From positions 1-64,000 of the forward strand of contig NZ_JAUSTQ010000008.1 of NCBI RefSeq assembly GCF_030812915.1: a stretch of 64,000 nucleotides of DNA, written 5' to 3'. Below the pieces are notes generated by a model. That model did no database searches, was not told the origin of the DNA, and was given only the letters and a program-made list of their open reading frames with translations. A program made the translations under genes and the position numbers. Source of the stretch: Alkalibacillus salilacus (lineage in GTDB: Bacteria; Bacillota; Bacilli; Bacillales; Alkalibacillaceae). How positions within the stretch are numbered: the stretch's first letter is position 1; the number at the start of each line of letters is the position of its first letter. Positions 5,128 through 52,968 of this stretch are shown piece after piece.

Positions 5128-5283
5128 TTATTTGATAAAATCGCTAATTTATGAGATTAGTACGTTTATTTATGAAATAAATTCTCTGATTTATGAGATA
5201 AACGTTTAGTTATTTGATAATTCAGTTGAGTTATGAGATAAATTCAACCAGAAATTAAATAAAAGATAGTGGAAATTAAATAA
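5128..5283. repeat. 21-bp-period dyad-element array A (8 units)
   Basis: Eight 11-bp cores start at 5128, 5149, 5170, 5191, 5210, 5231, 5252 and 5273: TTATTTGATAA, TTATGAGATTA, TTATGAAATAA, TTATGAGATAA, TTATTTGATAA, TTATGAGATAA, then AAATTAAATAA twice. Intervals are 21 bp except one of 19. The 10-bp spacers are not conserved. The array lies between two convergent genes, 22 bp after the pfpI terminator, and has no open frame. Confidence 0.85.
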
Positions 5284-5296
5284 ATAGAAAGTTCAA

Positions 5297-5332
5297 TAGA
5301 AAACCCTACGCTAATGTTTCTTAGTGTAGGGT
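5297..5332 (-). terminator. Terminator of the SDR gene
   Basis: On the minus strand, AACCCTAC-CTAA / TTAG-GTAGGGTT is followed by TTTTC, just past the SDR stop. Confidence 0.75.
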
Positions 5333-5344
5333 TACTTTAATGTC

Positions 5345-6112
5345 TTATTTTAATGACTTAGCTAGGAGGCGCTGAACCATTTTTCGAGTTAGAATGCGTG
5401 TGAAAGCAATAAGAAATTTATATCGTTTGCCAGGGATTGATACATTTTTCTTTTTGAAAAGGGCATGATAGCCAATTGAAGCGACGCGTTCTGGTGACAT
5501 CGCTATATCGTTAAATGATTCACCCATGGATTGCATATTGGCTTCGTTGGCAAAGTTTGTTGCGGTTGGTCCAGGACATAAAGCAGTGACAGATAGATTA
5601 CCTTTTTTCTGGAGTTCGGTGTTAAGAGATTCTGATAAGGATAATACATAAGCTTTCGTTGCTGCATATGCACTCATCGCTGGGGTAGGAACAAAGGAAG
5701 CGATGGACCCGATATTTAATATTCTTCCATATTGAGAACGGACCATATCTTGTCCAAAATAATACGTTAAATTAGTAAGCGCGACCATATTAAGCTGTAA
5801 CATTTGGTTGAGACGATCTAGATCAGTCTCAAGGAATAAGTCTTCGATTCCAAATCCAGCATTGTTCACTAAGATATCGACGCGGTGCCCATCTTGCTGG
5901 ACACGATCATATAGGGCTTTTGCTGCTTGGGGTTTGGCGAGGTCAAACGGGATAATCGTCACATTGGTGTGTGAGCTTAGTTCTGCTTTAACTTCTTCTA
6001 ATTTATTTTCACTCCGTGCGACTAAAATAAGGTTTAAGTCATTTGCCATAAGTTTAGCGAGTTCGTAACCAATGCCACCACTAGCGCCAGTGATTAGAGC
6101 GGTTCTTGCCAT
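5345..6112 (-). CDS. Short-chain dehydrogenase/reductase (SDR family, YqjQ-like)
   Basis: 255-residue classical SDR. The Rossmann motif GASGGIGYELAK is near residues 8-19, NNAG follows in mid-domain, and the catalytic YAATK gives Tyr and Lys with an upstream Ser (IGSIAS). The C-terminal tail (KFLIAFTRILTRKMVQRLLAKSLK) is basic and hydrophobic, as in YqjQ/DltE-like SDRs that may associate with membranes. The substrate is unknown. The ATG is preceded by AAAGGATG. A hairpin (AACACATCA / TGATGTGTT, around 6149-6185) lies in the short divergent region toward the second usp gene. Confidence 0.9.
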   Translation of the reverse strand: MARTALITGASGGIGYELAKLMANDLNLILVARSENKLEEVKAELSSHTNVTIIPFDLAKPQAAKALYDRVQQDGHRVDILVNNAGFGIEDLFLETDLDRLNQMLQLNMVALTNLTYYFGQDMVRSQYGRILNIGSIASFVPTPAMSAYAATKAYVLSLSESLNTELQKKGNLSVTALCPGPTATNFANEANMQSMGESFNDIAMSPERVASIGYHALFKKKNVSIPGKRYKFLIAFTRILTRKMVQRLLAKSLK

Positions 6113-6247
6113 GAATATTTCATCCTTTCATAAATACATTATTTAATAAGCGTAACACATCAAGTTCCTATAGTTCTTGTGATGTGTTTAGCCTGAGCAG
6201 TGACACTAGATGTCGTTTTGAAAAAGGTAGAAGACGTGATCTAAAAT

Positions 6248-6273
6248 GTTTAAGCATTGCTAGTAAAGGATAT
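6248..6273 (+). promoter_or_regulatory. SigB-like promoter of the second usp gene
   Basis: GTTTAA-N14-GGATAT is one base from the SigB consensus, 38 bp upstream of the usp ATG. Confidence 0.7.
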
Positions 6274-6310
6274 ATAAGGAATAGAATCCTGTAGGAAGGA
6301 GTTGAATAGT

Positions 6311-6823
6311 ATGAGTCATGAATATCAAAAGATCCTAGTTGCATATGACGGTTCGAGTGATAGTATGAAAGCGATTCGTCAGGCAGAGAGCTTAGCAAAA
6401 GCTCATCATGCTTCCTTAATCGTTGTGTACGTTCATGATCAAAATACAAAAACGAAAGCAACAATGAATTCAGAACCCGTTTTTTCACATGGAGCTTCTA
6501 TGATGCATAATACGACCAATTATGTGCCATATGTCCAATTCGGAGACTTTAACCCAACCGCTAATAAAGAATCGATTGGGAGTGAGGCACAGAAGCTATT
6601 AGGTGAAGTAGCTACAAAAATTTCGGATGATATCAAAGAAGTCCATTATGAAACATTAGTAGGTGATCCCGCTAAAACGCTTGTGCAATATGCAGAGGAT
6701 CAGGATATGGATCTAATTGTATTAGGAAATCGTGGTATTAGTGGTCTTCGTCAACTTGTGATGGGAAGTGTCAGTAATAAAGTGGCGAACGAATCTAATA
6801 TTCCTGTCTTAATTGCAAAATAG
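6311..6823 (+). CDS. Universal stress protein, UspA family (second copy)
   Basis: 170 residues with YQKILVAYDGSSDSMKAI at the N-terminus and the ATP-binding signature GNRGISGLRQLVMGSVSNKV at the C-terminus. The ATG at 6311 was chosen because AGGAAGGAG lies nine bases upstream; a TTG at 6302 would abut the SD. A longer insertion (about residues 35-75, rich in Asn, His and Thr) distinguishes it from the first copy. Expression is probably SigB dependent. Confidence 0.93.
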   Translation: MSHEYQKILVAYDGSSDSMKAIRQAESLAKAHHASLIVVYVHDQNTKTKATMNSEPVFSHGASMMHNTTNYVPYVQFGDFNPTANKESIGSEAQKLLGEVATKISDDIKEVHYETLVGDPAKTLVQYAEDQDMDLIVLGNRGISGLRQLVMGSVSNKVANESNIPVLIAK

Positions 6824-6838
6824 TAAGTATATGAGTGT

Positions 6839-6866
6839 AAAAGCTTGGCATTGTGCCAAGCTTTTA
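6839..6866 (+). terminator. Terminator of the second usp gene
   Basis: AAAAGCTTGGC / GCCAAGCTTTT is a perfect hairpin. It resembles the terminator of the first usp gene (shared AGCTTGG core). Confidence 0.85.
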
Positions 6867-7051
6867 CTATTTATTGAATCATAAATTCATTTCTGAATGA
6901 AAGTTGGAGTTATTTCCCGGGCTATAATTTGAATCACGGCTCTAAAGATTAAATAGTCAGGAGGGAAGCTTCAAAATTCTTATTGATTAAAAGGGATTAA
7001 AGCGTTTGAAGGCGAAATAGTGTTAAGAGATTAATGTGGAGTGTGTTTGGT

Positions 7052-7270: not shown

Positions 7271-7307
7271 GGTTTATTCACAAAAATTTTGAAAAAAGTG
7301 GCCTTAT

Positions 7308-7402
7308 TTATGAGATAATTGCATCAAGTTATTTCATAAATAACAAGATTTATGAGATAACTGAGTTAGGTTATGAAATAAATTCATGAATTTATTTCAT
7401 AA
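7308..7402. repeat. 21-bp-period dyad-element array B (5 units)
   Basis: Cores at 7308, 7329, 7350, 7371 and 7392 read TTATGAGATAA, TTATTTCATAA, TTATGAGATAA, TTATGAAATAA and TTATTTCATAA. All four intervals are exactly 21 bp. Both orientations of the asymmetric centre (GAR and its complement YTC) alternate. The array lies between two tandem rightward genes. Confidence 0.9.
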
Positions 7403-8759: not shown

Positions 8760-8833
8760 TTGTTAAACAAACTTGATAATTTGTTAGACAGTTCTACTTA
8801 ATTATGAAATAAAGTGGTGAGATTGTTTAACAA
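8760..8833. repeat. 21-bp-period dyad-element array C, GT-type variant (4 units)
   Basis: Cores at 8760 TTGTTAAACAA, 8781 TTGTTAGACAG, 8802 TTATGAAATAA and 8823 TTGTTTAACAA all fall at exact 21-bp intervals. A degenerate fifth (ATGTTAAAAAA) would fall at 8844. Here both arms change together (TTGT...ACAA instead of TTAT...ATAA), which argues that the dyad itself matters. The array lies between convergent genes, 17 bp after the mpfA-like terminator. Confidence 0.75.
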
Positions 8834-8849
8834 TCTCAATTAAATGTTA

Positions 8850-8888
8850 AAAAACCCGGCTAATTAAACGTTAGCTTAATTAGCCGAG
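8850..8888 (-). terminator. Terminator of the YhgE-like gene
   Basis: On the minus strand, a long stem, CTCGGCTAATTAA / TTTAATTAGCCGGG, is followed by TTTTTT. Confidence 0.88.
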
Positions 8889-19327: not shown

Positions 19328-19464
19328 TTTTGAAATAATTCCTCGAATTTATTTCAAAACTAGCCGAATTTATTTCATTAATTCGGCTAGTTATCTCATA
19401 AATTGAGAGCGCACCTTAATTTATTTAATAAATAAAAGCATTAATGAACGAATTTATCTCAAAA
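19328..19464. repeat. 21-bp-period dyad-element array D (4 regular units plus 2 outliers)
   Basis: Cores at 19328 TTTTGAAATAA, 19349 TTATTTCAAAA, 19370 TTATTTCATTA and 19391 TTATCTCATAA sit at exact 21-bp steps. Two further cores (19421 TTATTTAATAA, 19454 TTATCTCAAAA) are out of phase by 9 and 12 bp, as if the array is decaying by indels. The array starts 22 bp after the EamA terminator, between convergent genes. Confidence 0.82.
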
Positions 19465-20735: not shown

Positions 20736-22541
20736 ATGGCTAAATATTATTTTGAAAAGAAGGATGATCGTAAAGCAATATATGATGCGATGAAGAAGTG
20801 GAAAGAAAATTGTCTATTGAATGAAGGCTCACTGATTTGGGAAGGAGAAGCTGTTTGGACGCAAGATAATATTCGTAGGTTTAAGTCAATTTTCGTTGAC
20901 AGTCCTGATAGTTCTGGTGAAACCTTTGATATTAAATTAGAGAATCAATTAGAGAACGAAGTTGAATCTGTTTATAAATTCTTGATTGAGTTGATGTACA
21001 TATATTATTTGTTTCCCTCTAAACGCTCAAATACATATAAGACTAAAATCAATAAATTAGAGAAGATTGCTTCGTGGAAGGGGATTGAGTTTGATCGTTC
21101 TTGGCCAATTTTAGAAGCTTTAAATGGAGGCCTTGGTTCACCTGGGTCAGGTTATAATTCAAACAGATATCATGAAATTTCTTTTCTTAATTCAATTGTT
21201 AAGCAATTAAAGGATATGCCAATTGAAGAACGTGAAAATATTCTGAACCAACCTTGGAAACTAAAGCAGTTTGTAGATGATATACGTCAAAGGTTTGGTA
21301 AACAGCTACAAATGCAACATGTTATTCTCCATTTATTACACCCCGATTACTTTGAAAGAATGGTGAGCTGGGGACACAAGAAAAAAGTGAAAAATACGTT
21401 TGATTATATGATAATTGAGAATGACTATCATGACATGGATTATCAATTACTTCAAATTCGAGAGAAACTTAATGAGAAATATGGTGAGGATATAGATTTT
21501 TACGATCATCCTGAAATCAGACAGGAATGGAAAGGTGATATTAAATCTGATGGTCCTGGTGAAGAGCCATCAATTGATCGCGATCATCTAAATGTGAATT
21601 TTGAAGTTGAGCTACAAGATCTTGGTTTAGTATTTGAAGAGAAAGACTTACTGATTGAACAAGTTTCATCAGCATTGAAAAATGGCAAGCATATTATCCT
21701 AACTGGACCACCTGGTACTGGGAAATCTAAGTTAGCGAGTTCAATCTGTGAGGCATATAATGTTAAACCTATGATGGCGACTGCATCATCAAATTGGTCA
21801 ACTTACGATACGATCGGTGGCTATAAACCTAACCAAAACGGTAAACTTTATTTCGATGATGGACTGTTTTTAAAATGTTTCAAGGATCGAAAAACGAATG
21901 AACCTCATAATAAATGGTTCATCATTGATGAAATTAACCGTGCAGATATTGATAAAGCGTTCGGTTCACTTTTTTCGGTTTTAACAGGTGATGATGTTGT
22001 CTTACCTTATGCAGCTGATAACGGAGAGTTAATCGATATCACACCACAAAAGGGCGAAAAGATTCAGGACATTCAAGAAAACGAATATGTCATGCCTGAT
22101 GATTGGCGAATTATTGCGACGATGAATACCATTGATAAGTCGTCGTTATATGAAATGAGTTATGCGTTTATGCGCCGTTTTGCCTTTATTTCAATTGGTG
22201 CGCCTAAAGATATCAATAATAAGTTAATTAAAGAATATTTATCGATTTGGGGGATGGAAGATTATCCTAATATCGAAACCCTTAAAAATATTTGGATGTT
22301 AATTAATCAATACCGGAAGATAGGACCAGCTATTATTGAGGACATTGCGCGTCATACAGAAGAAAATGACGATTTTGCACAACCTATTATGATGTATGTG
22401 TTACCACAATTTGAAGGATTGCCATTAAGTCGGATTAAAGAATTCATTAAACAATTACAAGAGAAAACTGATGTCGTGATTAATGATACTTACCTACTGA
22501 ACTTTGCTAATGACTTCTTCGGTGAAGGGGCATTCGAATGA
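20736..22541 (+). CDS. McrB-like AAA+ NTPase of a two-gene restriction module
   Basis: 601 residues. The N-terminal ~285 residues are an uncharacterised helical domain (includes LHLLHPDYFERMVSWGHKKKV), probably for DNA or effector recognition. The AAA+ domain follows: Walker A GPPGTGKS at 324-331, Walker B FIIDEINRAD at 395-404 and the McrB-type MNTIDKSSLYEMSYAFMRRF at 463-482. This is the MrcB/McrB clade, whose hexamers power a McrC nuclease. An in-frame TAG directly precedes the ATG, so the start is fixed, but the nearest SD (GAGAGAGG) is unusually far, about 14 bases. It overlaps the nuclease gene by 4 bp. Its specificity is unknown. Confidence 0.82.
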   Translation: MAKYYFEKKDDRKAIYDAMKKWKENCLLNEGSLIWEGEAVWTQDNIRRFKSIFVDSPDSSGETFDIKLENQLENEVESVYKFLIELMYIYYLFPSKRSNTYKTKINKLEKIASWKGIEFDRSWPILEALNGGLGSPGSGYNSNRYHEISFLNSIVKQLKDMPIEERENILNQPWKLKQFVDDIRQRFGKQLQMQHVILHLLHPDYFERMVSWGHKKKVKNTFDYMIIENDYHDMDYQLLQIREKLNEKYGEDIDFYDHPEIRQEWKGDIKSDGPGEEPSIDRDHLNVNFEVELQDLGLVFEEKDLLIEQVSSALKNGKHIILTGPPGTGKSKLASSICEAYNVKPMMATASSNWSTYDTIGGYKPNQNGKLYFDDGLFLKCFKDRKTNEPHNKWFIIDEINRADIDKAFGSLFSVLTGDDVVLPYAADNGELIDITPQKGEKIQDIQENEYVMPDDWRIIATMNTIDKSSLYEMSYAFMRRFAFISIGAPKDINNKLIKEYLSIWGMEDYPNIETLKNIWMLINQYRKIGPAIIEDIARHTEENDDFAQPIMMYVLPQFEGLPLSRIKEFIKQLQEKTDVVINDTYLLNFANDFFGEGAFE

Positions 22542-23830
22542 CGTTAACAGATAGACAGTTATTGGATGAGATATCTAGTTATCTAGTTGGTTATCTAAAG
22601 TCAGGTCAAATTAATATTGATTCAGTTTTATCAAAAACAAGCCTTAACATTGCCAATTTTAATGATTTACTAAAACTGCGATTTTTATTATTACCTGAGA
22701 CAAACAGGTTTGTCCAACAATTACCGTCGCTATTAAAACGGATGAAGACGACCACAACATATACAAAAGAAACATATTATGGAGAAGTTCGTGGAGAGAT
22801 TGATTTTAGTGAGACGATCAGAGAAAGATTAGCACGAAACTATCAAGATCAGACCATCTTTACAACAAATGAAAGTGTGAAATCCTATAACACAACAGAA
22901 AACCAAATCCTGAAACAAATACTAATGGTGTTAGATGATTTATTAGTGCGGAATGACTTTATATCAAACTTAAAAAGTTCGAATTGGTTTAATGATTCGG
23001 AATCGTTACAGATGAGTGTCTCAAAAGCATTAAGAAAAAACATATACATCCAACGAGTTAACGGCGACTCTGTTACAGATCGCATGATTCAGCAAACACT
23101 TCGTCACCGTAATCCACTTTACCAAAAGGCTGCAAAACTTTTGGAGCACTATCGTAAACTTATGCGTGGACAATATAATGAGTCTGATCTAGTTCATTTG
23201 TTTGAACAAACCTTGATCACGCCTGATAATCGAGACGTTTTATTTGAATTGTACTGGGTGGTTCAAATGATTAAACAACAACCGAATATGGTTAAACTCT
23301 ATATCATGGATAAATCACAAAATTTAGTAGCATCTTGGGATGATCCTGACTATTTCTATAAACTGTATCATAATTCATCTGGATCACAAGATATACGTTT
23401 TAACGTTAAAGAAGATGAAATAGCAAATTCATCTAACCCGTATTTACAGCAAAGATGTCAGTCTTATAAAAATCAAAAACAGCTAGACCAATTTTTCTTT
23501 AATATTCAAAAGGAATCTTCTAGTGTGTGGGAAGGAAGACCAGATTTTATTATTGAGAAGATAGACAAAAGCACTCAGGAACTGGTATCACTAACGATTG
23601 GTGAAGTTAAAAACACTTCAGATGATAAATATGCTAGAAAAGGCTTGGCAGAATTGAATGATTATATGCATTTTGTCAAAAATCACAAGAATGAATATAT
23701 ACGTGATGAAATTGAAGTTAATGGATTGTTGTGCCTGCGCCAAACCCAAACGTCAAAAAGAGAGACAGATCATATTAAACTACTCGTATTAAATGATGAC
23801 GAAATAGGATTAGCGAAATGGAGTTTATAA
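22538..23830 (+). CDS. McrC-like PD-(D/E)XK nuclease subunit
   Basis: 430 residues, start overlapping the AAA+ stop by 4 bp (ATGA), so obligately coupled. The N-terminal ~240 residues are helical, with YTKETYYGEVRGEIDFSETIRERLARN reminiscent of McrC/DUF2357-type proteins. The C-terminal nuclease core shows WEGRPDFIIE (Asp336) and SLTIGEVKNT (Glu356, Lys358), a good PD-(D/E)XK site, with Glu237 as a possible third acid. Together with the AAA+ partner it should cleave modified or foreign DNA. It is divergent from textbook McrC, so the call rests on context plus the active site. Confidence 0.72.
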   Translation: MTLTDRQLLDEISSYLVGYLKSGQINIDSVLSKTSLNIANFNDLLKLRFLLLPETNRFVQQLPSLLKRMKTTTTYTKETYYGEVRGEIDFSETIRERLARNYQDQTIFTTNESVKSYNTTENQILKQILMVLDDLLVRNDFISNLKSSNWFNDSESLQMSVSKALRKNIYIQRVNGDSVTDRMIQQTLRHRNPLYQKAAKLLEHYRKLMRGQYNESDLVHLFEQTLITPDNRDVLFELYWVVQMIKQQPNMVKLYIMDKSQNLVASWDDPDYFYKLYHNSSGSQDIRFNVKEDEIANSSNPYLQQRCQSYKNQKQLDQFFFNIQKESSSVWEGRPDFIIEKIDKSTQELVSLTIGEVKNTSDDKYARKGLAELNDYMHFVKNHKNEYIRDEIEVNGLLCLRQTQTSKRETDHIKLLVLNDDEIGLAKWSL

Positions 23831-23922
23831 GCAATTCTTGTAAAGACAATGAGAAATCTACCTTTACGAATCAGATTTTGATATATTAAATATAGCACAT
23901 AGCAATATTTGGAGGTTACGTC

Positions 23923-25407
23923 ATGAGCAAATTAACACTACAAGAACTCGAAAACCATTTATGGGAGTCGGCGAATATACTGCGTGGAAGTATTGATTCA
24001 TCCGATTATAAGAACTACATATTTGGTATGTTATTTCTGAAACGACTAAGTGATGTGTTTGTTGAGACAGCGAAAGAAATTGAAATAGAAGAAGATAGTG
24101 ACCATGGTTGGGAAGACCCAGATGAGCACCAATTCTTCGTGCCAGAACGTGCGCGTTGGTCTCATATCCAAATACAGACACATGATATTGGAAATACCAT
24201 CAACAAAGCGTTCGAAGCGTTAGAAGAAGAAAACACGTCGCTACAAAACGTGTTAGCGAATATCGACTTTAATGATAAAGATAAACTACCGGACTCGCTA
24301 CTAATGCAATTGATTCAGCATTTCTCGAAAATTGATTTAAGTAATAATAATTTATCAGAACCCGATATGTTAGGCCGTGCATATGAGTACTTAATTAAAC
24401 AATTTGCCGATGATGCTGGTAAAAAAGGCGGCGAATTCTACACGCCAAATAAAGTCGTTGAACTGATTGTCAATTTAATCAAACCAGAAGAAGGTATGCG
24501 CGTCTGTGATCCAACAGTTGGATCAGGCGGTATGCTTGTACAGTCGGTTGATTATATTAAATCTCAAGGTGGTGACGCACGTAATATAACGTTACACGGC
24601 CAAGAGAAAAACTTAAATACATGGGCCATTTGTAAAATGAACCTATTATTACATGGTTTAAGTGACCACCACATCGTTCGTGGTGATACGATTCGTGATC
24701 CACAATTAGTTGGTGATGATAAAGAGTTATTATTATACGACCGCGTGATTGCCAATCCGCCGTTTTCACTTAAAAACTGGGGACGTGAAGAAGCGGAAGG
24801 CGACGAATATGGTCGTTTCCGCTTTGGTACTCCACCAAAAAATGCAGGAGATTATGCCTTTGTGCAACACATGATTTCGACCTTAAACCATCAAGGTAAA
24901 GCAGGTGTCGTCATGCCTCACGGAGTCTTATTCCGTGGTGGAGCAGAAGGCAAAATTCGTGAAGGTCTTTTAAAAGAAGACTTGGTCGAGGCGATTATCG
25001 GTCTTCCAGAAAACCTATTTTACGGCACAGGCATTCCAGCGTGTATCTTAATTTTGAATCGAAATAAATCAACTGAAAACCAAGGGAATGTGTTCATCTT
25101 AGATGGATCGAAAAACTACCAAGAAGCAATAAACCAAAATGTATTACGTGATGAAGACATTAAACAAATCGTAGATGCTTATGATGCTTGGGAAGAACAG
25201 GAGAAATATTGTCGCGTTGTGGAATTAGATGAAATTAAGGAAAATGACTACAACTTAAACATTGCCCGTTACATCGATTCAACTGAAGAAGAGGAAGAAA
25301 TCGATGTTCAGGCAGCTGTTGCTGAAATGAAGAGGCTAGAGCAAGAACGTGATGAGATCGAAAGTAAGATGTATGGGTATTTGAAGGAGTTGGGGTATGA
25401 TGAGTGA
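23923..25407 (+). CDS. hsdM: Type I restriction-modification DNA methyltransferase subunit
   Basis: 494 residues, normal for HsdM. N-terminal HsdM helical domain ([38 protein letters not shown]), SAM-binding [10 protein letters not shown] at 196-205 and catalytic NPPF at 278-281, giving N6-adenine methylation in complex with HsdS. TTTGGAGG precedes the ATG. It lies 92 bp after the nuclease gene and overlaps hsdS by 11 bp. The C-terminus is strongly acidic with a coiled-coil stretch. Confidence 0.96.
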
Positions 25408-26665
25408 AAAAACCCAACATGGATGGACATTCGATAAGTTAGGTAATTACGTTAAATTACAAGGTGGAAATGCATTTAAAAGTAGAGATTTTAAGGATAA
25501 CGGTATTCCTTTGTTAAGAATAGCGAATATTAGGAATAATGGTATTGAATTAGATGGTATTGCTTATATTGATGATGAAATTGCCAAAACATACAGTTCT
25601 TATTTATTGAAAGAAAGCAATGTTGTGATTGCTATGTCAGGAGCAACAACTGGGAAAACAGGAATTATAAAAAAAGAAAACCTTCCTTTGTTATTAAATC
25701 AACGTGTAGGTGTATTTAAAATAAAGAAAGATAATTTTATGATCCAAGATTACTTAAGATTTGTTGTTCAATCCAGTTATTTTCAAAATGTAATAAAAAT
25801 TGATGCAATTGGAGGGGCACAGCCCAATATAAGCCCTAAACAAATTGAATCAATTCATGTTTATATTCCCCCATTAGATGAACAACAAAAAATTGCAGCA
25901 ATCCTTTCATCAGTCGATAAAGCAATCGATAAAACGAAAGAAATTATCGAAGAAACCGAGACAGTGAAAAAGGGTTTGATGCAACAGTTGTTAATAAATG
26001 GAATTAGGAGCCATAATTTCAAAGTCAGTCCTATAGGTTCTATTCCTGAAGCATGGCAAGTATTATCGTTTAATAAAGTTTTTGATCGAATTCGAACAAA
26101 AAATTATAACAATAACCAAAATGTGTTAACTATATCCGGAGAAAAAGGATTGGTTAACCAACTTGACTATTTTAATAAAAGCGTCTCTTCTAAAAACCTT
26201 TCAAACTATATTTATCTTGAAAAAGGAGATTTTGCTTATAATAAAAGTTATTCAAATGGTTATCCATTGGGTGCAATTAAAATGTTAGATAAATATGATA
26301 ACGGTGTAGTTTCAACTCTATATATATGCTTTAGGCTAAAACAGCCTTATTTGCAATCATTTTATAAACATTACTTTGATTCTGGTTTATGGAATAGACA
26401 AGTATATAATATTGCCCCTGAAGGTGGAAGAAGTCATGGGTTACTTAATGTAGGTGTGAAAGACTTTTTTGAAATATTAATTCCAGTACCAAGTATTGAA
26501 GAGCAACAGGAAATAAGTGATAGAATCAACGCAATAGAGTATAAAAAAGAAATTGAGCAGAAAAAATTGTCAAAACTAACTAATATTAAACAAGGCCTGA
26601 TGCAACAACTCCTAACAGGTAAAGTCCGTGTACCCATCAATGAAGACGAGGAGGTTCCGTCATGA
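25397..26665 (+). CDS. hsdS: Type I restriction-modification specificity subunit
   Basis: 422 residues with two target-recognition domains (about 8-150 and 205-370), each followed by a helical spacer with the family repeats ([42 protein letters not shown] and [45 protein letters not shown]). It should recognise a bipartite target. The TRD coding regions are visibly more AT-rich than hsdM and hsdR, as is common where TRDs have been exchanged. AAGGAG lies inside hsdM; either of two adjacent ATGs could start it. It overlaps hsdR by 4 bp. Confidence 0.95.
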
Positions 26666-29607
26666 GTGACGCGCAAGCTTGGAATGAAGAAACGATTGTT
26701 GAAAATCGAATGATTAAACAACTTCAGAAGCTTGGCTACACGTACGTTCATGGACCGGAACTAGATCAAGAGCGTTCATCGACGTTAGAGATTATTTTAA
26801 AAGGACGTTTGCGTGAGGCACTCAAACGGTTTAACCCGTGGTTGAATGACAATAATTTAAATAAAGTCATGCGTGAAATTTCGCATATAGACGGGACGAG
26901 TCTAATGGATGCGAATCAACACTTCCATGAACTGCTAATTAATCATTTGTCAGTCAAACAAGATCTCGGCAGTGGACTAAAAAACCAAACGGTGCAAATA
27001 ATTGACTTTAATGATATTGAGAATAATGATTTTTTGATCACGAACCAATTTAGTTATACGTATGCGAATGAAACGATTCGTCCTGACATTATGGTATATG
27101 TGAATGGACTTCCACTTGTCGTAATCGAATGTAAAAGTCCTACGCTTCCACCTGAGGACCAAATCGGGCAAGGGGTTAAACAGTTAAGACGTTACCAGCA
27201 ACAACATGAGCCCTTGTTTTACTACAACCAGTTTATGATCGCGACAAGTAATGATCGCGCTCGTGTTGGGACAATTGGTGCGAAAGTGCAACATTATGCA
27301 TCGTGGAAAGAGCCGTATCCGTTATCTGTTGAGGATGTTGGTGATAATCCGACACCACAAGATATTTTAACGACGGGTATATTAGATAAGAAACGATTGT
27401 TTGATTTAATTTTGAACTTTGTTGTTTATGAACAAGAAGGTGGCCGCGTTATTAAGAAGATGGGCCGTTACCAACAGTACCGTGCCGTGAATAAAGCGGC
27501 TGAGCGTATTTTAAATGGTGAACACCCGCAAGAACGTGGTGGTATTGTTTGGGCGACACAAGGTTCTGGTAAGTCATTATCGATGGTTTTCTTATCGATG
27601 AAACTAAGACGGCATGCTGAACTAGGAAACCCCGTAATTGTGGTCGTCACAGACCGACAAGACTTAGACCAACAAATTACCAATACATTTCGTAGTTGTG
27701 GCTTCCCGAATCCACAACAAGCCGAATCGGTTGATGAACTCCAAACGTTATTACAACAAGGACCAGGTGCGACTGTTATGACGCTTGTCCAGAAGTTCCA
27801 GACAGACGATGAAAAGGATTATCCATTGTTAACGTCTTCAGAGAATGTAATTGTGTTAGTCGATGAGTCCCACCGTTCGCAGTACAGCTCCCTTGCGATG
27901 AATATGCGTGTTGGGTTACCGAACGCGACGTATATTGGCTTTACGGGTACACCGATTGATAAAGAAGATAAAAGTACAGTACGCACATTTGGTACGTATA
28001 TTGATAAATATCCAATCGAAAAAGCAGTAGAAGATGGAGCGACAGTCCCGATTTATTATGAAGCAAGACTTGTCGATTTGCATGTGCAAGGAGAATCGAT
28101 TGATACGTTATTCGAACGATTTTTCCGTGATTATTCGGATGAAGATAAAGAACGCATTAAACAGAAATACGTCACGGAAGAAGCACTCACAGCTTCACCT
28201 AAGCGTCTGCGTCATGTTGTGTTGGATATGATTGAGCATTATGAGCAATATATTGAACCGAATGGGTTTAAGGCACAAATTGTCTCTGTCTCACGTGAAG
28301 CGGCGGTTGAATATAAGAAACTATTAGATGAGTTAAGTGATTATGAGTCAGCTGTCATTATTTCAGGAGGCCATAACGACCCAGAGGAAATGAGACAGTA
28401 TGCGTTAACACGTACAGAAGAAAAACAACTTATCGAACGATTTAAGAAACCACTCGATGATGATCCTTTAGCTTTCCTAATCGTTTGCGATAAGTTGTTA
28501 ACTGGCTTCGATGCACCGATTGAACAAGTGATGTATTTAGACAAGCCGTTAAAAGAACACAACTTGCTCCAAGCTATCGCTCGTACCAATCGGACATATG
28601 ATAAGAAAAGTCATGGATTGATTGTTGATTACTATGGTGTATCGAAATTTTTAGAAGAAGCACTAGGTATTTTCCATGAGGAAGACGTTAAAGGCGCCAT
28701 GCATCATGTCGATGAAGAGATGCCACGACTTGAACAACGTCACCGTCAGGCGATGCGTTTCTTTGACTATATTAACAAAGAAGATTATGAAGCTTGCATT
28801 AAAGTGCTAGAGCCAGAAGATGTTCGTAATAAATTCGATACGGCGTTTAAGAAATTTTCCGAAAGCATGGATATGATTATGCCAAGTCCACGAGCGAAAC
28901 CGTATGTTGATGATTTGAAATGGCTTGGAAAAGTCCGTAAATTAGCTAAATCTCGTTATCATGTGGATGATGGGGCGATGGATATTTCTGATTGTGGTGG
29001 TAAAGTACGCGAATTAATTGAGGAATATGTTTACGCGTCAACACCTGAAGTGTTAGTGGAACCAGTCAACATTTTAACGAATCAATTCGATGAAAAACTG
29101 GATGAACTGAAATCACCTGAAGCGAAAGCAGCTGAAATGGAACACGCGATCAAACACGAAATCCGTGTGAAGTTAGATGAGAACCCCGTTAAGTATACAT
29201 CCATAAAAGAGCGCCTTGAAGAGTTGATTGAGAAACGTAAAGAACGACAGATGACGATTGAAGAATTACTAGAAGAACTCCATGCATTTCGTGAAGAATT
29301 AATAAACATGGATGAAGAGAGTCAACAATATGGCTTAGCTAGCCCTGAACAATTACCATTCTATCAATTGTTAGAACAAGAATTGCCAAGCGAAGCAGAA
29401 CAAGAAAGCGTCAAAGATTTAACTGAAATCGTAACAGAGATCATTCAAGACCACGCTGTCATTGATTGGACAGATAAAGAAGACGTCAAACGCGAAATGC
29501 GTAAAGTCCTAAAAAAACATTTACGACCGACAGCAATCCCGAATGGACAAGTTGAAAGCATTGCTCGCCGATTGATTGAACTAGGTGAGGTGCATTATAA
29601 AAAGTAA
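26662..29607 (+). CDS. hsdR: Type I restriction endonuclease/translocase subunit
   Basis: 981 residues. The N-terminal nuclease has PD at 141-142 and ECK at 156-158. The SF2 motor has Walker A WATQGSGKS at 297-305, VDESHRSQYS as motif II, FTGTP as motif III and LLTGFDAP and QAIARTNRTY as motifs V/VI. The C-terminal helical region (about 780-981) would contact HsdM/HsdS. The frame is intact, so the hsdMSR system looks functional. A 4-bp overlap with hsdS (ATGA) couples translation; a strong terminator follows. Confidence 0.95.
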   Translation: MSDAQAWNEETIVENRMIKQLQKLGYTYVHGPELDQERSSTLEIILKGRLREALKRFNPWLNDNNLNKVMREISHIDGTSLMDANQHFHELLINHLSVKQDLGSGLKNQTVQIIDFNDIENNDFLITNQFSYTYANETIRPDIMVYVNGLPLVVIECKSPTLPPEDQIGQGVKQLRRYQQQHEPLFYYNQFMIATSNDRARVGTIGAKVQHYASWKEPYPLSVEDVGDNPTPQDILTTGILDKKRLFDLILNFVVYEQEGGRVIKKMGRYQQYRAVNKAAERILNGEHPQERGGIVWATQGSGKSLSMVFLSMKLRRHAELGNPVIVVVTDRQDLDQQITNTFRSCGFPNPQQAESVDELQTLLQQGPGATVMTLVQKFQTDDEKDYPLLTSSENVIVLVDESHRSQYSSLAMNMRVGLPNATYIGFTGTPIDKEDKSTVRTFGTYIDKYPIEKAVEDGATVPIYYEARLVDLHVQGESIDTLFERFFRDYSDEDKERIKQKYVTEEALTASPKRLRHVVLDMIEHYEQYIEPNGFKAQIVSVSREAAVEYKKLLDELSDYESAVIISGGHNDPEEMRQYALTRTEEKQLIERFKKPLDDDPLAFLIVCDKLLTGFDAPIEQVMYLDKPLKEHNLLQAIARTNRTYDKKSHGLIVDYYGVSKFLEEALGIFHEEDVKGAMHHVDEEMPRLEQRHRQAMRFFDYINKEDYEACIKVLEPEDVRNKFDTAFKKFSESMDMIMPSPRAKPYVDDLKWLGKVRKLAKSRYHVDDGAMDISDCGGKVRELIEEYVYASTPEVLVEPVNILTNQFDEKLDELKSPEAKAAEMEHAIKHEIRVKLDENPVKYTSIKERLEELIEKRKERQMTIEELLEELHAFREELINMDEESQQYGLASPEQLPFYQLLEQELPSEAEQESVKDLTEIVTEIIQDHAVIDWTDKEDVKREMRKVLKKHLRPTAIPNGQVESIARRLIELGEVHYKK

Positions 29608-29614
29608 GTCATAT

Positions 29615-29650
29615 AAAAGGCATACCACTGTGTCAGGTGGTATGCCTTTT
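29615..29650. terminator. Bidirectional terminator between hsdR and the DUF45 peptidase gene
   Basis: AAAAGGCATACCAC / GTGGTATGCCTTTT, a perfect 14-bp stem with A and T ends, serves both convergent genes. Confidence 0.9.
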
Positions 29651-29653
29651 ACT

Positions 29654-30382
29654 TTAGTCAATCGTATGAAGTTCAGTCCCGTGAACGCGTAACCATTCTT
29701 TTGAGGCTTCGTAATCTGGTAATGTCGATTTAACGATTTTCCAAAACTGATCGTTATGCTCAGCTACAATTAAGTGAGCAAGTTCATGGACGATCACATA
29801 ATCAATAACATGAACCGGGGCCATCGCAAGTCGCCAGTTAATATAAATATCACCATTTGGTGTGCACGTTCCCCAACGTTTATGCTGCGTCCGTAACTGA
29901 AACGAACGTGATTCAACGCCAAGCAGGGATTCATAATGGTGTTTGCGATCGAGCATTTTTTTTAGCCCGTGTTCACGATACCAAGTCTTAAAGTGTTGAT
30001 CGAGTTGTTGTTGAATCATTTCTTGCGTCCAGTAATCAGGGACAATAGCCACAAATCGCCCTTGTTTTAATTTAAGTGAAGCTGATTGAACTGAATCTTT
30101 GTAAATTTTAATGCGATAATTTCGCCCTAAATAAGGTAACTTCTCACCACTAACCATTTCTTTCGGTTGAGTGACAGCTTTTACTTCATCAAGTGCTTCT
30201 AATTTCTCACTAATCCAACGTGCTTTCTTTTTCAATATCTCATCGAGTTTGGTTTGTTCGAGATGCTCAGGTGTGTACACTTCAACCCCGTTAATTAGAT
30301 CAACCGAGACGCGTACATCTTTACGATCCTCTATGTAATGGCAATAATCAATTGATGTTGTTCCATACTGTATGGTCGGCAT
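29654..30382 (-). CDS. YgjP/WSS1-like metallopeptidase (DUF45)
   Basis: 242 residues. The zinc site is HELAH with His199, Glu200 and His203, plus His209 (HExxH-x5-H). The upstream KRWGTCTPNGDIYINWRLAMAP is the hallmark of the YgjP branch. These gluzincin-like proteases often sit next to type I hsdR genes; their role there is not established, and repair of DNA-protein crosslinks or turnover of the restriction complex are suggestions only. The gene converges with hsdR. Confidence 0.9.
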   Translation of the reverse strand: MPTIQYGTTSIDYCHYIEDRKDVRVSVDLINGVEVYTPEHLEQTKLDEILKKKARWISEKLEALDEVKAVTQPKEMVSGEKLPYLGRNYRIKIYKDSVQSASLKLKQGRFVAIVPDYWTQEMIQQQLDQHFKTWYREHGLKKMLDRKHHYESLLGVESRSFQLRTQHKRWGTCTPNGDIYINWRLAMAPVHVIDYVIVHELAHLIVAEHNDQFWKIVKSTLPDYEASKEWLRVHGTELHTID

Positions 30383-36665: not shown

Positions 36666-36843
36666 TGATCTCATAATTGATTGGGTTTATCTTCCAATGA
36701 GGTTGATTATCTCACAAATGGTAGGAGTTATCTCACAAATGGTGGTTGTTATTTCACAAATTGAGATGATTGTCTCACAAATAGCTAGGATTATCTCATA
36801 AATAGAGATGATTATTTCAAAAATGAAAGGATTTATTTAATAA
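36666..36843. repeat. 21-bp-period dyad-element array E (9 units, longest and most regular)
   Basis: Cores at 36666 TGATCTCATAA, 36687 TTATCTTCCAA, 36707 TTATCTCACAA, 36728 TTATCTCACAA, 36749 TTATTTCACAA, 36770 TTGTCTCACAA, 36791 TTATCTCATAA, 36812 TTATTTCAAAA and 36833 TTATTTAATAA. Seven of eight intervals are 21 bp, one is 20. All units point the same way (CTC/TTC centre). The core is usually extended by AT, and spacers often end in GGA or GATGA. The array lies between convergent genes. Confidence 0.92.
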
Positions 36844-46022: not shown

Positions 46023-46096
46023 TTTTGAAATAAATTTAAATCGTTATTTCAAAACTCGAGCCATTAATTTCAAAAATTAAAGGAGTTATCTAATAA
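46023..46096. repeat. 21-bp-period dyad-element array F (4 units)
   Basis: Cores at 46023 TTTTGAAATAA, 46044 TTATTTCAAAA, 46065 TAATTTCAAAA and 46086 TTATCTAATAA; all three intervals are 21 bp. It starts 14 bp after the pucR terminator, upstream of the DoeA-like gene. The remaining ~140 bp contains that gene's promoter region. Confidence 0.85.
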
Positions 46097-48780: not shown

Positions 48781-48990
48781 GTCCGTTATTAACCGGACGG
48801 CCTAATGTCGACGTTGGACACAAAAGCTGATTTCATAAGCTTCTTTGCCTAATTCTGCGCCGAGTACTCGCAGGCGCAGGACGTACTTCGACATGATGTC
48901 GTGACTTCCACTTTGCAAACAGGACGTTTACGTTCTTTGTGGAAGTTCCACAATGCTTCGACCAGGAGTCGCCACCTTCGCTACTTACAA
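48781..48990. repeat. GC-richer multi-hairpin intergenic element
   Basis: A noncoding block richer in GC than its surroundings with successive perfect inverted repeats: GTCCG-N8-CGGAC, CTGCGCC-N11-GGCGCAG, CGACA-TGA-TGTCG and ACTTCCAC-N27-GTGGAAGT. I have a recollection of similar sequences recurring in Bacillaceae genomes, but cannot name a family. It could be a dispersed structured repeat or an RNA. Only one copy is visible here. From 48991 to 49214 nothing beyond the SD of the next gene is seen. Confidence 0.5.
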
Positions 48991-50501: not shown

Positions 50502-50516
50502 TTGGGTAATCCTCCA

Positions 50517-50816
50517 TCACCATAAGGGTTCTTCTTCATCTGATAATTCATATATAAAAGGAGTCAGTAATAATAATGCACTTACCAAAACGAATGCTAC
50601 TAAAAACACATAGGGTAGTGGCAGATTAATGGTGTTCGAAAATATAATGATGATCATGCCGGCTAGTGTGAAATACATGGATTTTTTACGACTTGCTGCA
50701 GAATAATACTGTCTGTTCCCGCACTTTGGGCAATCACGGCCAACACGAGCATTCCAACTAAACGGTAAAGCTTCTTTATATTTGAACTTATAGCCACAAC
50801 TTGCACACGAGAACAT
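50517..50816 (-). CDS. Zinc-ribbon plus two-TM small protein (TIGR04104-like)
   Basis: 99 residues. N-terminal CASC (Cys4, Cys7) and CPKC (Cys29, Cys32) form a zinc ribbon with 21 residues between pairs, matching the cxxc_20_cxxc class. Two TM helices follow (about 48-66 and 70-90), ending in an acidic tail. Start chosen at the ATG; a GTG nine bases upstream lies in the SD (GAGGTG). Function unknown. Co-transcribed with the DCC oxidoreductase, so a redox or metal role is possible. Confidence 0.8.
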   Translation of the reverse strand: MFSCASCGYKFKYKEALPFSWNARVGRDCPKCGNRQYYSAASRKKSMYFTLAGMIIIIFSNTINLPLPYVFLVAFVLVSALLLLTPFIYELSDEEEPLW

Positions 50817-50898
50817 CGAAATCACCTCAATTTTCTGTATTGCTTTTCCCTTTATGATATCATAGACCTTAGAAAATGTCGTAACAGAAGGTGATGAG

Positions 50899-51588
50899 AT
50901 GACGCATATCTTAGTTGTTGAAGACGAAGCTAAAATCGCACGTGTTTTACAGTTAGAATTAGAATTTGAAGGGTATGGGATTACGACCGTATCCGCTGGT
51001 TATGATGCCCTTGAAATCATGCGTGACGAAACATTCGACCTCATTTTACTTGATATTATGCTACCTGAGATGAGTGGATTAGATATTTTAAAACGTTATC
51101 GAAAGCATAACCAAACGACACCTGTTATTATGCTAACGGCTAAAGACACGGTTGAAGATAAAGTGACGGGGCTGGATAGTGGGGCGCAGGATTACGTTAC
51201 CAAACCTTTTCAAATCGAAGAGTTACTCGCAAGAATTAGGGCACATTTACGTTCTACTGAGGTAAAAGATGATGGTGATTGGTTGAACTTTCCGCCCCTT
51301 CATTTGAACGTGTCCACACGCGATGTCATTCGTGCCAATCGAACGATTGAATTAACACCTAAGGAATTTGATTTGCTTGTTCTATTTCTTCGTCATCCGA
51401 GACAAGTGTTGTCGCGAGAACAAATATTAAACGCCGTTTGGGGCTATGATTTCGTTGGTGATACGAATGTTGTTGATGTTTATGTCCGCTATTTACGAAA
51501 AAAAGTTGACCATGAAGATGAGTCACCACTTATTCATACAGTCAGAGGTGTTGGCTACGTGCTAAAGGATCCGTATGAAACTACGTAA
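50899..51588 (+). CDS. OmpR-family response regulator (YkoG-like)
   Basis: 229 residues. Receiver domain with phospho-acceptor Asp52 (LILLDIMLPEMSG), the acidic pair at 8-9 and a Lys in YVTKPF; C-terminal winged helix (LTPKEFDLLVLFLRHPRQVLSREQILNAVWGYDF...VDVYVRYLRKKV). It overlaps the kinase gene by 14 bp. The layout regulator-kinase-PepSY-PepSY resembles the B. subtilis ykoGHIJ cluster as I recall it, but the signal is unknown. Confidence 0.92.
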   Translation: MTHILVVEDEAKIARVLQLELEFEGYGITTVSAGYDALEIMRDETFDLILLDIMLPEMSGLDILKRYRKHNQTTPVIMLTAKDTVEDKVTGLDSGAQDYVTKPFQIEELLARIRAHLRSTEVKDDGDWLNFPPLHLNVSTRDVIRANRTIELTPKEFDLLVLFLRHPRQVLSREQILNAVWGYDFVGDTNVVDVYVRYLRKKVDHEDESPLIHTVRGVGYVLKDPYETT

Positions 51589-52915
51589 TAAAATTTTTGT
51601 CGCGACAACCGGGTTGTTTATTGTATTGCTCATTGCTTTCTCTGTTGCTATTTATGTATTGTTTGCTGAGGAAGCCTATGACCGCGAGTTAAATCGTTTA
51701 GATCAAGAAGCACAAGCGATGACTTCGAACGTTCATGATCTTAGTTCTTCTGTACAAACAGAAGATCTATTGCGTGCTTATGTCCCATCAAATGGGGCGA
51801 TTCGTGTCGTTGATCAATCATTTGATATGATGACGTCGGTTACAGCGAATAGACAAGTTGGCTTATATCGAGCCGAACTTCCAGAAAAGGAAGGACGTGT
51901 TGTTACTCGTTTAGACGATGTTGATGGGTCAACTGTATCATTTGTGCAACAGCCGATCATTTGGAATGAAGGTGATGTTGTTTATGTCCAAATGGTTGAA
52001 CGATTAGATGCGTTAGATGAAACATTGGCAAATCTACAATTAGTGATTTTACTCGTTGCTTTAATTGCGATTGTGCCAGTTGTCATCTCTGGTAAACTGG
52101 TTGCTGATTTAGTTTTAGAACCGATACAGTCTCTTATTCAGACGATGAATCGAATTAAAGAGAATGAAACATTTCAAGAAATTTCTCTTCCTAAACGTTC
52201 TAAAGACGAACTGTTTACTATGAGCCAAACATTTAATGACATGATTCGCTTACTGCAAGCTAATTTTGAGAAGCAAGAACAGTTTGTCTCGAATGCGTCT
52301 CATGAATTAAGGACACCGATTACGGTGATCGAATCTTATGCCAATTTAGTGAAAAGGCGAGGGTACGAAAGGACTGAAGTGGTAGAAGAAGCAATTGAAG
52401 CGATTCATAGCGAAGCAAAGCGAATGCGCGATTTGACAGAACAATTATTGCTTTTAGCAAAACGTGATCAAGATTGGCAGCTAAACATGTCTAAAGTACA
52501 CCTCGACGCCATAGTACAAGATGTGGCTAATCACATGCATCAGGCTTATGAGCGTACTGTTTTTGTTGATGCCAAACCTACTACTTACTATACGGATGAA
52601 GGGAAACTTAAGCAATTACTGTATATTTTATTAGATAATGCACTTAAGTATAGTGATACATCAGTGGAACTCGCACTAGATTCTGTTGATGACAATCCAG
52701 TCATGACAATTCGCGATTATGGTGTAGGAATCCCAAATGTTCAACAAGAGCAAATTTTTGAACGTTTTTACCGCGTCGATGAATCAAGGCAACGAGCTAC
52801 TGGTGGCAGTGGTTTAGGTTTAGCTTTAGCTAAAGAACTGGCTGACGTTTTAGATGCATCACTTGATCTATCAAGCACACCTGGTGAAGGAACCACCGTC
52901 AAAGTGATCCTCTAA
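51575..52915 (+). CDS. Sensor histidine kinase (YkoH-like)
   Basis: 446 residues. TM1 about 9-30, extracytoplasmic sensor (about 31-152), TM2 about 153-175, HAMP, HisKA with His243 in FVSNASHELRTPITVIESYANLV, and HATPase_c (DNALKY, DYGVGIP, GGSGLGLALAK). AAAGGA inside the regulator gene is the SD. The stop runs directly into a repeat array. The sensor region shows no named domain. Confidence 0.93.
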   Translation: MKLRNKIFVATTGLFIVLLIAFSVAIYVLFAEEAYDRELNRLDQEAQAMTSNVHDLSSSVQTEDLLRAYVPSNGAIRVVDQSFDMMTSVTANRQVGLYRAELPEKEGRVVTRLDDVDGSTVSFVQQPIIWNEGDVVYVQMVERLDALDETLANLQLVILLVALIAIVPVVISGKLVADLVLEPIQSLIQTMNRIKENETFQEISLPKRSKDELFTMSQTFNDMIRLLQANFEKQEQFVSNASHELRTPITVIESYANLVKRRGYERTEVVEEAIEAIHSEAKRMRDLTEQLLLLAKRDQDWQLNMSKVHLDAIVQDVANHMHQAYERTVFVDAKPTTYYTDEGKLKQLLYILLDNALKYSDTSVELALDSVDDNPVMTIRDYGVGIPNVQQEQIFERFYRVDESRQRATGGSGLGLALAKELADVLDASLDLSSTPGEGTTVKVIL

Positions 52916-52968
52916 CCATTTAATAAATTAGAGGATTTATCTAATAAATAGAGGAACTAATTAAATAA
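52916..52968. repeat. 21-bp-period dyad-element array G (3 units)
   Basis: CCATTTAATAA (52916), TTATCTAATAA (52937) and TAATTAAATAA (52958), with both intervals 21 bp. It begins at the base after the kinase stop codon, before the PepSY gene. Confidence 0.72.

Follow-up and report, generated by a model that had tools for sequence, protein, structure and literature searches.

Intergenic arrays of an 11-bp dyad at a 21-bp pitch in Alkalibacillus salilacus: candidate operator rows for a cooperatively binding protein

Results

The window analysed here is a stretch of 64,000 nucleotides from the genome of Alkalibacillus salilacus, and it holds seven arrays in which an 11-bp dyad, TTAT-NNN-ATAA or a variant of it, recurs with 10 bp between one core and the next (Table 1). 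The arrays were found with a detector that combines a PWM with chaining of units, applied to the window and to further genome DNA, and genes were called by a simple ORF caller. An earlier sequence-only reading had named seven positions, about 37 units and 28 of 30 intervals of exactly 21 bp, and the detector agrees closely: all seven arrays are present, with 36 units and 29 intervals, of which 28 measure 21 bp and one 19 bp. A Pfam scan of 10 of the 13 array-flanking genes showed no common function.

Table 1. The seven arrays of the window, their surroundings and their counterparts in A. almallahensis.
Position	Units	Neighbouring genes	Further features	A. almallahensis counterpart
5128-5283	8, TTAT-type	Convergent; DJ-1/PfpI gene and short-chain dehydrogenase gene (Pfam)	Spacing 21, 21, 21, 19, 21, 21, 21	Ortholog C16:2912-3067; 8 units and 19-bp step kept
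7287-7402	6, TTAT-type	Co-directional	35 bp before called start of downstream gene	Ortholog C16:751-866; 6 units
8760-8854	5, TTGT-type	Convergent	Terminator-like hairpin immediately precedes	Ortholog with 7 units; 42-bp (two-unit) indel, in register
19328-19401	4, TTAT-type	Convergent; EamA transporter and YrvL genes (Pfam)	Decayed units on to about 19464	Ortholog differs by 21-bp and 30-bp indels
36666-36843	7 strong (36707-36843); weak at 36666 and 36687, upstream	Convergent	Strong-unit centres CTC, CTC, TTC, CTC, CTC, TTC, TTA	C24:18003-18118; 6 units
46023-46096	4, TTAT-type	Co-directional; PucR-type regulator and M24 peptidase genes (Pfam)		
52916-52968	2 strong (52937-52968); weaker at 52916	Directly 3' of upstream gene's stop	Model R1 match at 52918-52968, E 1.1e-4	

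About 1.09 of the 2.73 Mb of the source genome (G000) was examined. Within 876 kb of it, selected mostly for arrays (the exceptions being contig C1, the window and the remainder of the window's contig), there are 51 arrays comprising 248 units, from 2 to 8 units each, and 188 of the 197 intervals are exactly 21 bp. A further 215 kb of other stretches gave two more two-unit calls (L132, and L139 inside a called gene), which are excluded from the 51. Model R1 counts both strands and comes near a ceiling of 150 scored candidates, so that its figures of 128 and 127 cannot be read as numbers of arrays. The peak at 21 bp that the sequence-only reading had expected over shuffled controls stands when 400 kb of C1 and the window are taken in place of the complete genome. 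In the window, TTRT-NNN-AYAA pairs at 21 bp were observed 11 times, against none in each of 100 dinucleotide shuffles, and five block shuffles produced no arrays; in the 400 kb of C1, a sequence-agnostic scan summed over all 256 four-base arms, limited to distances of 12-44 bp, gave 7 pairs at 21 bp and one each at 26, 41 and 42 bp.

Two words are in use. The G/C fraction at the third arm base, with 0.3 as the dividing line, sorts the 51 arrays into 31 of TTAT-type (0-0.125) and 20 of TTGT-type (0.357-0.929). Beyond the 11-bp core, A is enriched two positions to its left and T two positions to its right (0.60 each). Different arrays do not have spacers in common beyond the chance level: 11 of 17,260 pairs are alike at 9 or more of 10 positions, while a column-shuffled control over all pairs had a mean of 6.9 and a maximum of 14. 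Within arrays, the same likeness is found in 8 of 318 pairs, which points to local multiplication of units.

Fifty of the 51 arrays are intergenic; several touch the ends of called ORFs and one (on C14) lies within a called gene. A CRISPR array has nearly identical repeats, about 23-50 bp long, and spacers of much the same length, whereas these arrays consist of degenerate 11-bp cores with 10-bp spacers; at the gathering score, Rfam placed no CRISPR family in the window. The earlier judgement that this is neither a coding nor a CRISPR repeat is upheld, and no named family was found for it in Rfam or in the literature searched, the latter judged from listings; none of the titles listed by one search dealt with intergenic arrays in bacteria. 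Among the gaps of at least 100 bp on C1 and in the window, arrays occupy 10 of 27 convergent, 2 of 48 divergent and 5 of 112 co-directional gaps, a convergent enrichment of 10/27 against 7/160 for all others. For the 40 arrays with known neighbours on both sides, 57 of the adjoining gene ends are 3' and 23 are 5', and the genes that face an array with their 5' end appear unrelated by eye. A terminator-like hairpin stands before the array at only 31 of the 57 facing 3' ends, which falls short of showing that the arrays are untranscribed. In the A. almallahensis sample the bias towards convergent gaps is less marked: arrays are found in 4 of 11 convergent gaps, in none of 21 divergent ones and in 11 of 49 between co-directional genes.

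Alignment of A. salilacus with A. almallahensis (G002 in our genome set), in two comparison directions, gave substitutions at 20/492 and 16/537 arm positions, 80/501 and 85/552 spacer positions, and 117/1187 and 225/2371 flank positions. Arms therefore change about four times less than spacers (20/492 versus 80/501; Fisher 1.8e-10 and 3.5e-13), and the contrast persists when A/T positions alone are compared (18/461 versus 43/315; 14/505 versus 42/348). Units are called by their likeness to the consensus, which can cut the arm substitution rate by up to half; with this bias considered, the arm rate of 3-4% still lies below half of the spacer rate (about 8%), by a smaller margin than the raw one. 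Because the arms are less changed than the spacers, the cores are probably under selection. Gaps of 21 or 42 bp make up 5 of 10 and 4 of 13 within-array alignment gaps.

At E <= 1e-5 the TTAT and TTGT words were found in 2 of 199 genomes of the order, and among the genomes searched they are confined to two closely related species; one other genome of the order (L202) has a single irregular three-unit TTAT chain, with spacings of 22 and 19. A reversed control pattern had one match in A. almallahensis. The congeners G001, G003 and G004 carry 20-21-bp arrays of other words (GCGCTGATAA, TTCGGTAAT, TCGCCGGATTA, GAGCGCCAGAAT and GTCGGAC), of which GCGCTGATAA is sparsely present in A. salilacus too. 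In G003 and G004 the cores are GC-rich, for example GCGCTGATAA or TCGCCGGATTA, again at 20-21 bp, and the words are oriented and not dyads; the G004 arrays show 41-bp repeats with similar spacers, and G001 has 52/53-bp repeats, outside the range of our scan. The 20 other-word arrays of G003 and G004 show no convergent bias (3 convergent, 11 co-directional and 6 in called ORFs), and relative to the neighbouring co-directional gene the oriented words run in the same direction in 7 cases and in the opposite direction in 4. The arrays of G003 were built into model R2, yet G003 is absent from the listing of one search, so it was probably not drawn.

A search for three exact units returned 33 genome stretches, three of them from A. 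almallahensis. In 24 of the 33 two spacers are alike (at least 8/10), in L089 the likeness is 7/10, and five are diverse (L091, L094, L099, L117, L119); the surroundings of L091 and L094 include AlbA_2-type genes, while those of L089, L099, L117 and L119 have nothing in common. Of three viral stretches, L121 and L122 (repeat alike) have the repeat within a called reading frame and L123 has spacers alike. L094, from Schaalia vaccimaxillae, is a 7-unit TTATGAGATAA array before a SLFN_AlbA_2/HATPase_c_4 gene, and on L091, an archaeal contig, the array overlaps a gene of the same type. The Schaalia array resembles those of Alkalibacillus in its core word, its spacing of 20-21 bp and its unrelated spacers; it is, however, a single array that ends 9 bp before the gene start, like an autoregulated operator. 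A protein of this type was rejected as the reader of the Alkalibacillus arrays, because A. almallahensis has arrays and gave no SLFN_AlbA_2 match, A. salilacus gave no HATPase_c_4 match, and the 28 testable of 30 HATPase_c_4 loci in Bacilli have no chain of at least four units. Among those loci, lowering the cut-off gave a single weak TTAT score (L174), and some chains of three units were present.

Discussion

From the pitch, the dyads, the placement, the conservation and the restriction of the words, we infer a putative, lineage-specific protein, and with moderate confidence we favour the interpretation that the arrays are operator rows to which it would bind cooperatively, probably in an architectural or insulating capacity. 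Each array would be a row of predicted sites for one dimeric sequence-specific protein, the dimer recognising the 11-bp dyad by its half-sites, TTAT or TTGT, and somewhat favouring the A two bases before and the T two bases after. Since a spacing of 21 bp puts the sites on one face of the helix, the dimers could sit side by side and bind cooperatively. The sequence-only reading had offered either cooperative binding on one face or a phased bend; the first fits best, because the core arms are conserved, the spacers are not, and 188 of 197 intervals measure 21 bp, while the second is weakened. As to the role, the location in gaps, the 3' bias and the convergent preference in A. salilacus make an architectural or insulating function, such as that of a nucleoid or boundary protein, the most likely one. 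Control of promoters would be less expected, given that 3' ends make up 57 of the 80 flanks where a regulon would show arrays upstream of genes with a common function, and that the ten flanking proteins scanned in the window are unrelated. Several observations count against our interpretation: the excess of hairpins and of adjacent inverted complements described below is not predicted by a pure dyad model, the convergent bias is weaker in A. almallahensis and absent for the words of G003 and G004, the congener words are oriented and not dyads, and the spread over contigs is uneven.

The arrays might instead be neutral or self-propagating tandem repeats, with units of 20-21 or 41/42 bp that expand by slippage or unequal recombination in harmless gaps and involve no protein, which we regard as unlikely. 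Units do multiply locally, as the alike spacers within arrays indicate, the 41-bp repeats with similar spacers in G004 favour tandem multiplication, and convergent gaps are the safest places for neutral repeats. Yet the arms are conserved over spacers and flanks, the cores in A. salilacus stay while the spacers are mostly unrelated, 51 separate arrays share two words, and slippage by itself would not explain why different words have one pitch.

Sites such as those of Reb1 or TTF-I act as bound-protein roadblocks to transcription. It is distinctly unlikely, and we rank it below cooperative protein binding, that the arrays work at the ends of transcripts, either as hairpins in the RNA or as sites where a bound protein halts read-through between convergent genes. 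The 3' and convergent bias in A. salilacus would suit such elements, and 26 of 37 arrays give an RNA fold that beats dinucleotide shuffles at a z of -2 or lower. When the cores are kept and only the spacers are shuffled, 12 of 37 still fold better by the same measure, whereas 25 of 37 do not (z above -2); the array at 19328 is a strong case, with z -8.8 against dinucleotide shuffles and -5.4 against spacer-shuffled controls. Perfect inverted complements are more frequent between adjacent than non-adjacent units (16/138 versus 6/243; 10/70 versus 2/139), the 1-10 pairing of spacer positions occurs in 65 of 138 cases, 41.5 being expected, and at 7371-7402 there is a paired change between the species. 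Against within-array permutation, however, adjacent units in A. salilacus are on average no more complementary (p 0.62; in A. almallahensis p 0.045), and hairpins do not require as many as 8 units to keep step at exactly 21 bp. The 31 facing 3' ends that already have a terminator-like hairpin, and the congener words that run both with and against the neighbouring gene, also argue against a role at transcript ends.

The REP sequences and BIMEs of enterobacteria are short palindromic extragenic repeats that occur in groups, favour gene 3' ends and gaps between convergent genes, and have been proposed to bind nucleoid proteins and gyrase. The many dispersed extragenic copies in A. salilacus, which favour the same kinds of place, recall them, but it is very improbable that the arrays are REP/BIME-like or MITE-like mobile repeats copied between places, since likeness of spacers between arrays stays at the chance level and the unit number varies from 2 to 8. 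They differ also in their 11-bp dyad, exact 21-bp pitch and unrelated spacers, and in place of a hairpin unit of about 20-40 bp only the dyad and a weak flank preference are conserved (PMC3733652 is a paper on REP elements). The Bcr1 and Bhal-1 stem-loop families are likewise repeated in Bacillus genomes, and are set apart by their description, in a table of PMC2267715, as block repeats of 72-167 bp, where the arrays conserve only an 11-bp core.

Plasmid iterons are direct sites set in a row at intervals of about two helical turns. The spacing of the arrays agrees with that of such sites (about 21-22 bp), and the likeness of 3-8 two-turn direct repeats to iterons, with the several words per genome, could be taken to mean chromosomal decoys or leftovers of integrated replicons. 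That the arrays are such Rep sites of plasmids or phages is nonetheless remote: they are chromosomal, have a dyad word and number 51 in 876 kb of a single genome, their positions are orthologous in A. almallahensis, and the flanking genes scanned are ordinary, with no Rep gene among the 10 of 13 window proteins searched with Pfam. Phased intrinsic DNA bends, suggested by AT-rich cores every two turns, seem scarcely credible, since the core arms are conserved as specific words and the GC-rich cores of G003 and G004 keep the 20-21-bp pitch, so that pitch and not AT-phasing is common to the congeners.

If one protein family reads the arrays, they add to the chromosome organisation of these spore-formers a layer that has no name yet. 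A tentative extension, which we think may well not hold, is that a fixed pitch of 20-21 bp with a word that turns over between sister species marks a chromosome-wide class of site arrays in Bacillaceae-type genomes. Were this so, the readers would keep one geometry, change rapidly in specificity and reshape dozens of sites, and bacteria would have their own counterpart of satellite or PRDM9-type turnover. Because the pitch stays while the word changes, sister species offer ready-made swaps for studying the joint change of a DNA-binding protein and dozens of its sites, and the convergent bias in A. salilacus would allow transcription or supercoil boundaries between genes to be tested directly. 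Along the chromosome, the arrays are unevenly spread over contigs, and dnaA lies at position 328,911 of C1.

Arrays of a dyad element with a two-turn pitch

The sequence-only reading had claimed seven arrays with an exact 21-bp period in the window. All seven are present, and a PWM built from paired units of the window and 400 kb of contig C1, with chaining at about 21 bp, finds 36 units and 29 intervals, of which 28 are exactly 21 bp and the remaining one is 19. When every four-base arm was searched with a three-base centre at distances of 12 to 44 (256 arms), distance 21 led in the window with 6 pairs, and 42 had 5. The autocorrelation peak expected at 21 also appeared in 400 kb of C1, with 7 pairs at 21 and one each at 26, 41 and 42; each of 100 dinucleotide shuffles gave zero pairs at 21, and five 200-bp block shuffles gave zero arrays.

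In the whole assembly of this strain (G000; 2,729,834 bases, 30 contigs), 876 kb picked mostly for containing arrays hold 51 arrays and 248 units, with intervals of 21 bp in 188 of 197 cases and otherwise of 42 (3), 20 (3), 19 (2) or 40 (1). Stretches of Alkalibacillus almallahensis (G002) picked for matches, 153 kb in all, hold 18 arrays, in which 70 of 75 intervals measure 21 bp. The core reads TTRT-NNN-AYAA, its centre being A/T; outside it, A is enriched at the second base before and T at the second base after (0.60 each). The third arm base divides the 51 arrays into 31 of TTAT type, with a G/C fraction of 0-0.125 at that base, and 20 of TTGT type (0.357-0.929; at least 0.6 in 18 of them). 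TTGT-type arrays lie in convergent gaps in 13 of 20 cases and have 6 or 7 units in 13 of 20; TTAT-type arrays lie in convergent gaps in 10 of 31 cases and have 2 to 8 units.

Conservation of the arms

Orthologous arrays of the two species were aligned via their flanks. For units called in G000 (12 arrays), changed positions number 20/492 in arms, 24/185 in centre triplets, 80/501 in spacers and 117/1187 in flanks; for units called in G002 (15 arrays), the counts are 16/537, 26/200, 85/552 and 225/2371. Because units were called by likeness, arm changes may be undercounted by as much as half, but the observed rate is lower still. The contrast between arms and spacers persists at A/T positions alone (18/461 vs 43/315 when called in G000, 14/505 vs 42/348 in G002), and a variant alignment including longer regions gives 22/532 for arms, 24/200 for centres, 82/531 for spacers and 182/1844 for flanks. 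Of the gaps inside arrays, 5 of 10 (G000-called) and 4 of 13 (G002-called) are 21 or 42 bp long. The arrays are a real feature and probably a selected one.

Genomic placement and neighbouring genes

According to gene calls from a simple ORF finder, 50 of the 51 G000 arrays lie between genes: 23 in convergent, 23 in co-directional and 4 in divergent gaps. Among gaps of at least 100 bp in C1 and the window, an array occurs in 10/27 convergent, 2/48 divergent and 5/112 co-directional gaps (Fisher 7.6e-6 for convergent enrichment); adding array-chosen and other G000 contigs gives 16/53, 3/99 and 14/211. The convergent bias is weaker in the A. almallahensis sample than in G000 (4/11, 0/21 and 11/49). 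The 40 arrays with both neighbours are flanked by 57 gene 3' ends and 23 5' ends, and a terminator-like hairpin precedes the array at 31 of the 57 facing 3' ends, as against 78 of 234 at array-free gaps. Ten of the 13 window genes adjoining arrays were scanned; they have unrelated families or no family at all, and include a PucR-type regulator with its 3' end towards an array. Genes with 5' ends towards arrays are unrelated by eye, and the gene beside a divergent array in locus L033 is GntR regulator-like by eye.

The arrays are spread unevenly. Strict pairs are dense on C1, C5, C7, C8, C10 and C14, and none of the 19 lies on C2, C3 or C4, which together make up 932,605 bases (34% of the assembly); 100 kb sampled from these three contigs held no array, and they are absent from the listed matches to R1, the three-unit model of TTAT/TTGT arrays. 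No array was found in C1 from 306,663 to 400,000, where dnaA is located.

Distribution of the words and of the pitch

Of 22 family genomes, two have the strict two-unit TTAT pattern, G000 (19 matches) and G002 (18); it is absent from the congeners G001, G003, G004 and G005 and from 16 other family genomes. R1, built on sequence alone, has 128 and 127 matches in G000 and G002 (both strands; not array counts); it finds nothing in the four remaining congeners, and three genomes besides have one weak match each (E 0.006-0.009); at E <= 1e-5, under stricter filters, G000 and G002 are its sole matches among 199 order genomes.

The pitch extends further. A sequence-agnostic scan (10-mers matching at 8/10, four or more units per array, spaced by d or d+1 with d from 12 to 43) of intergenic regions of 18 family genomes matched at d = 19-22 and 40-42 only; with one region counted once per d, 20 was found in 30 regions, 21 in 18, 41 in 9, 40 in 6, 19 in 4, and 22 and 42 in 1 each. 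Beyond G000 and G002, matches came from G001, G003, G004, G009 and G018, and the other 11 genomes gave nothing (100 kb of G008, 15 kb of G005, 20 kb of each of nine). Among 19 stretches from other order genomes (183 regions) there were two arrays, both at 20/21; the 20 class stretches from outside the order (203 regions) had one at 12, one at 16 and none at 20/21. One dinucleotide shuffle per region gave no arrays, and coding pieces gave none at 20/21 (one at 12 in 653 from G000; 0/214 from G001, G003 and G004).

The 20 other-word arrays in G003/G004 divide into 3 between convergent genes, 11 between co-directional genes and 6 inside called ORFs, which may be spurious; relative to co-directional neighbours, the words point with the gene in 7 cases and against it in 4. 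Chains of GCGCTGATAA also occur in G000 loci L034, L080 and L136, and R2, the model of this word, matches 45 times in G004, 3 in G000, once in G002 and weakly in one other among 199 order genomes. An AT half (TTAT or TAAT) is common to some words. A bolder and rather doubtful reading is that the pitch is constant throughout the class and the words are what turns over.

Mechanism and alternatives

The two-turn pitch, the dyad core, the conserved arms and the free spacers point to dimers that would bind side by side along one face of the DNA. The main complication for this dimer-array reading is the hairpins. Against spacer-shuffled controls, 12 of 37 arrays show better folding, and perfectly complementary units are found in 16/138 adjacent vs 6/243 non-adjacent pairs in G000 and in 10/70 vs 2/139 in G002. 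Spacer-end pairing is above expectation (65/138 vs 41.5 expected; 31/70 vs 24.3), but for the mean complementarity of adjacent units G000 shows no rise (p 0.62 by permutation; G002, 0.045). The hairpin signal may be a by-product of mutation, for example of quasi-palindrome correction, or a real function.

Spacer pairs at least 9/10 alike number 8/318 within arrays and 11/17,260 between them (column-shuffled control for all pairs: mean 6.9, maximum 14). By these counts the arrays expand in place and have not been copied recently from a single element; an ancient spread of one element, its spacers since fully decayed, is still conceivable.

The convergent and 3' bias in G000, together with adjoining genes that have no function in common, disfavours promoter control, and on the same grounds we infer, and favour, an architectural or insulating role. 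Plasmid iterons are alike in geometry and BIMEs in placement; each has a defining feature that the arrays lack or may lack. No name for the arrays was found in Rfam, whose window matches are one tRNA and Bacillaceae-1 RNA alone, or in the open-licence literature (names published solely in subscription journals would escape), in keeping with the first reading, which recognised no named family. We regard them as a new form of extragenic protein-site array with a putative reader protein.

Other words at the same pitch, and further features beside or apart from the arrays (SLFN protein, the SLFN_AlbA_2/HATPase_c_4 protein, an earlier candidate reader)
Feature	Location	Description
Word GCGCTGATAA	G003/G004	as many as 13 units, spacings of 20 and 21 often alternating
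Word TTCGGTAATAA	G003/G004	9 units
Words TCGCCGGATTA, CGAGCGCCAGAAT, GTCGGAC	G003/G004	
Neighbouring units	window 7371-7402	changed as a pair between species: here TTATGAAATAA...TTATTTCATAA, A. almallahensis TTTTGAAATAA...TTATTTCAAAA; complementary in both
Type I restriction-modification system-like genes	window 20736-30382	by eye from protein starts: methyltransferase-like 23923, specificity-like 25397, helicase-like 26662; metallopeptidase-like gene adjoins (by eye)
Bacillaceae-1 RNA	window 48888-48955 (-)	Rfam match 46.1 bits, cut-off 35; Rfam type sRNA gene
Extra segment, ~195 bp	L062 ~170-561 (G002 C17)	in A. almallahensis inside array region; GGCTCTGTTAAAGT-like inverted ends, MITE-like
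Direct repeats	L048-L055 (G001 C1:40001-200000), joined positions ~14536, 15065, 18578, 29424, 157214	intergenic, period 52-53 bp
SLFN_AlbA_2 match	L142 (G000 C17:25001-37925)	sole one among 22 family genomes; near second type I restriction system-like genes (by eye); no array in stretch
TTAT-like units	L091 5911-6006, archaeal contig	4 units over 5' end of SLFN protein gene, which includes a winged helix
TTATGAGATAA array	L094 5952-6085, Schaalia vaccimaxillae	7 units, spacing 20-21 bp; ends 9 bp upstream of SLFN protein gene
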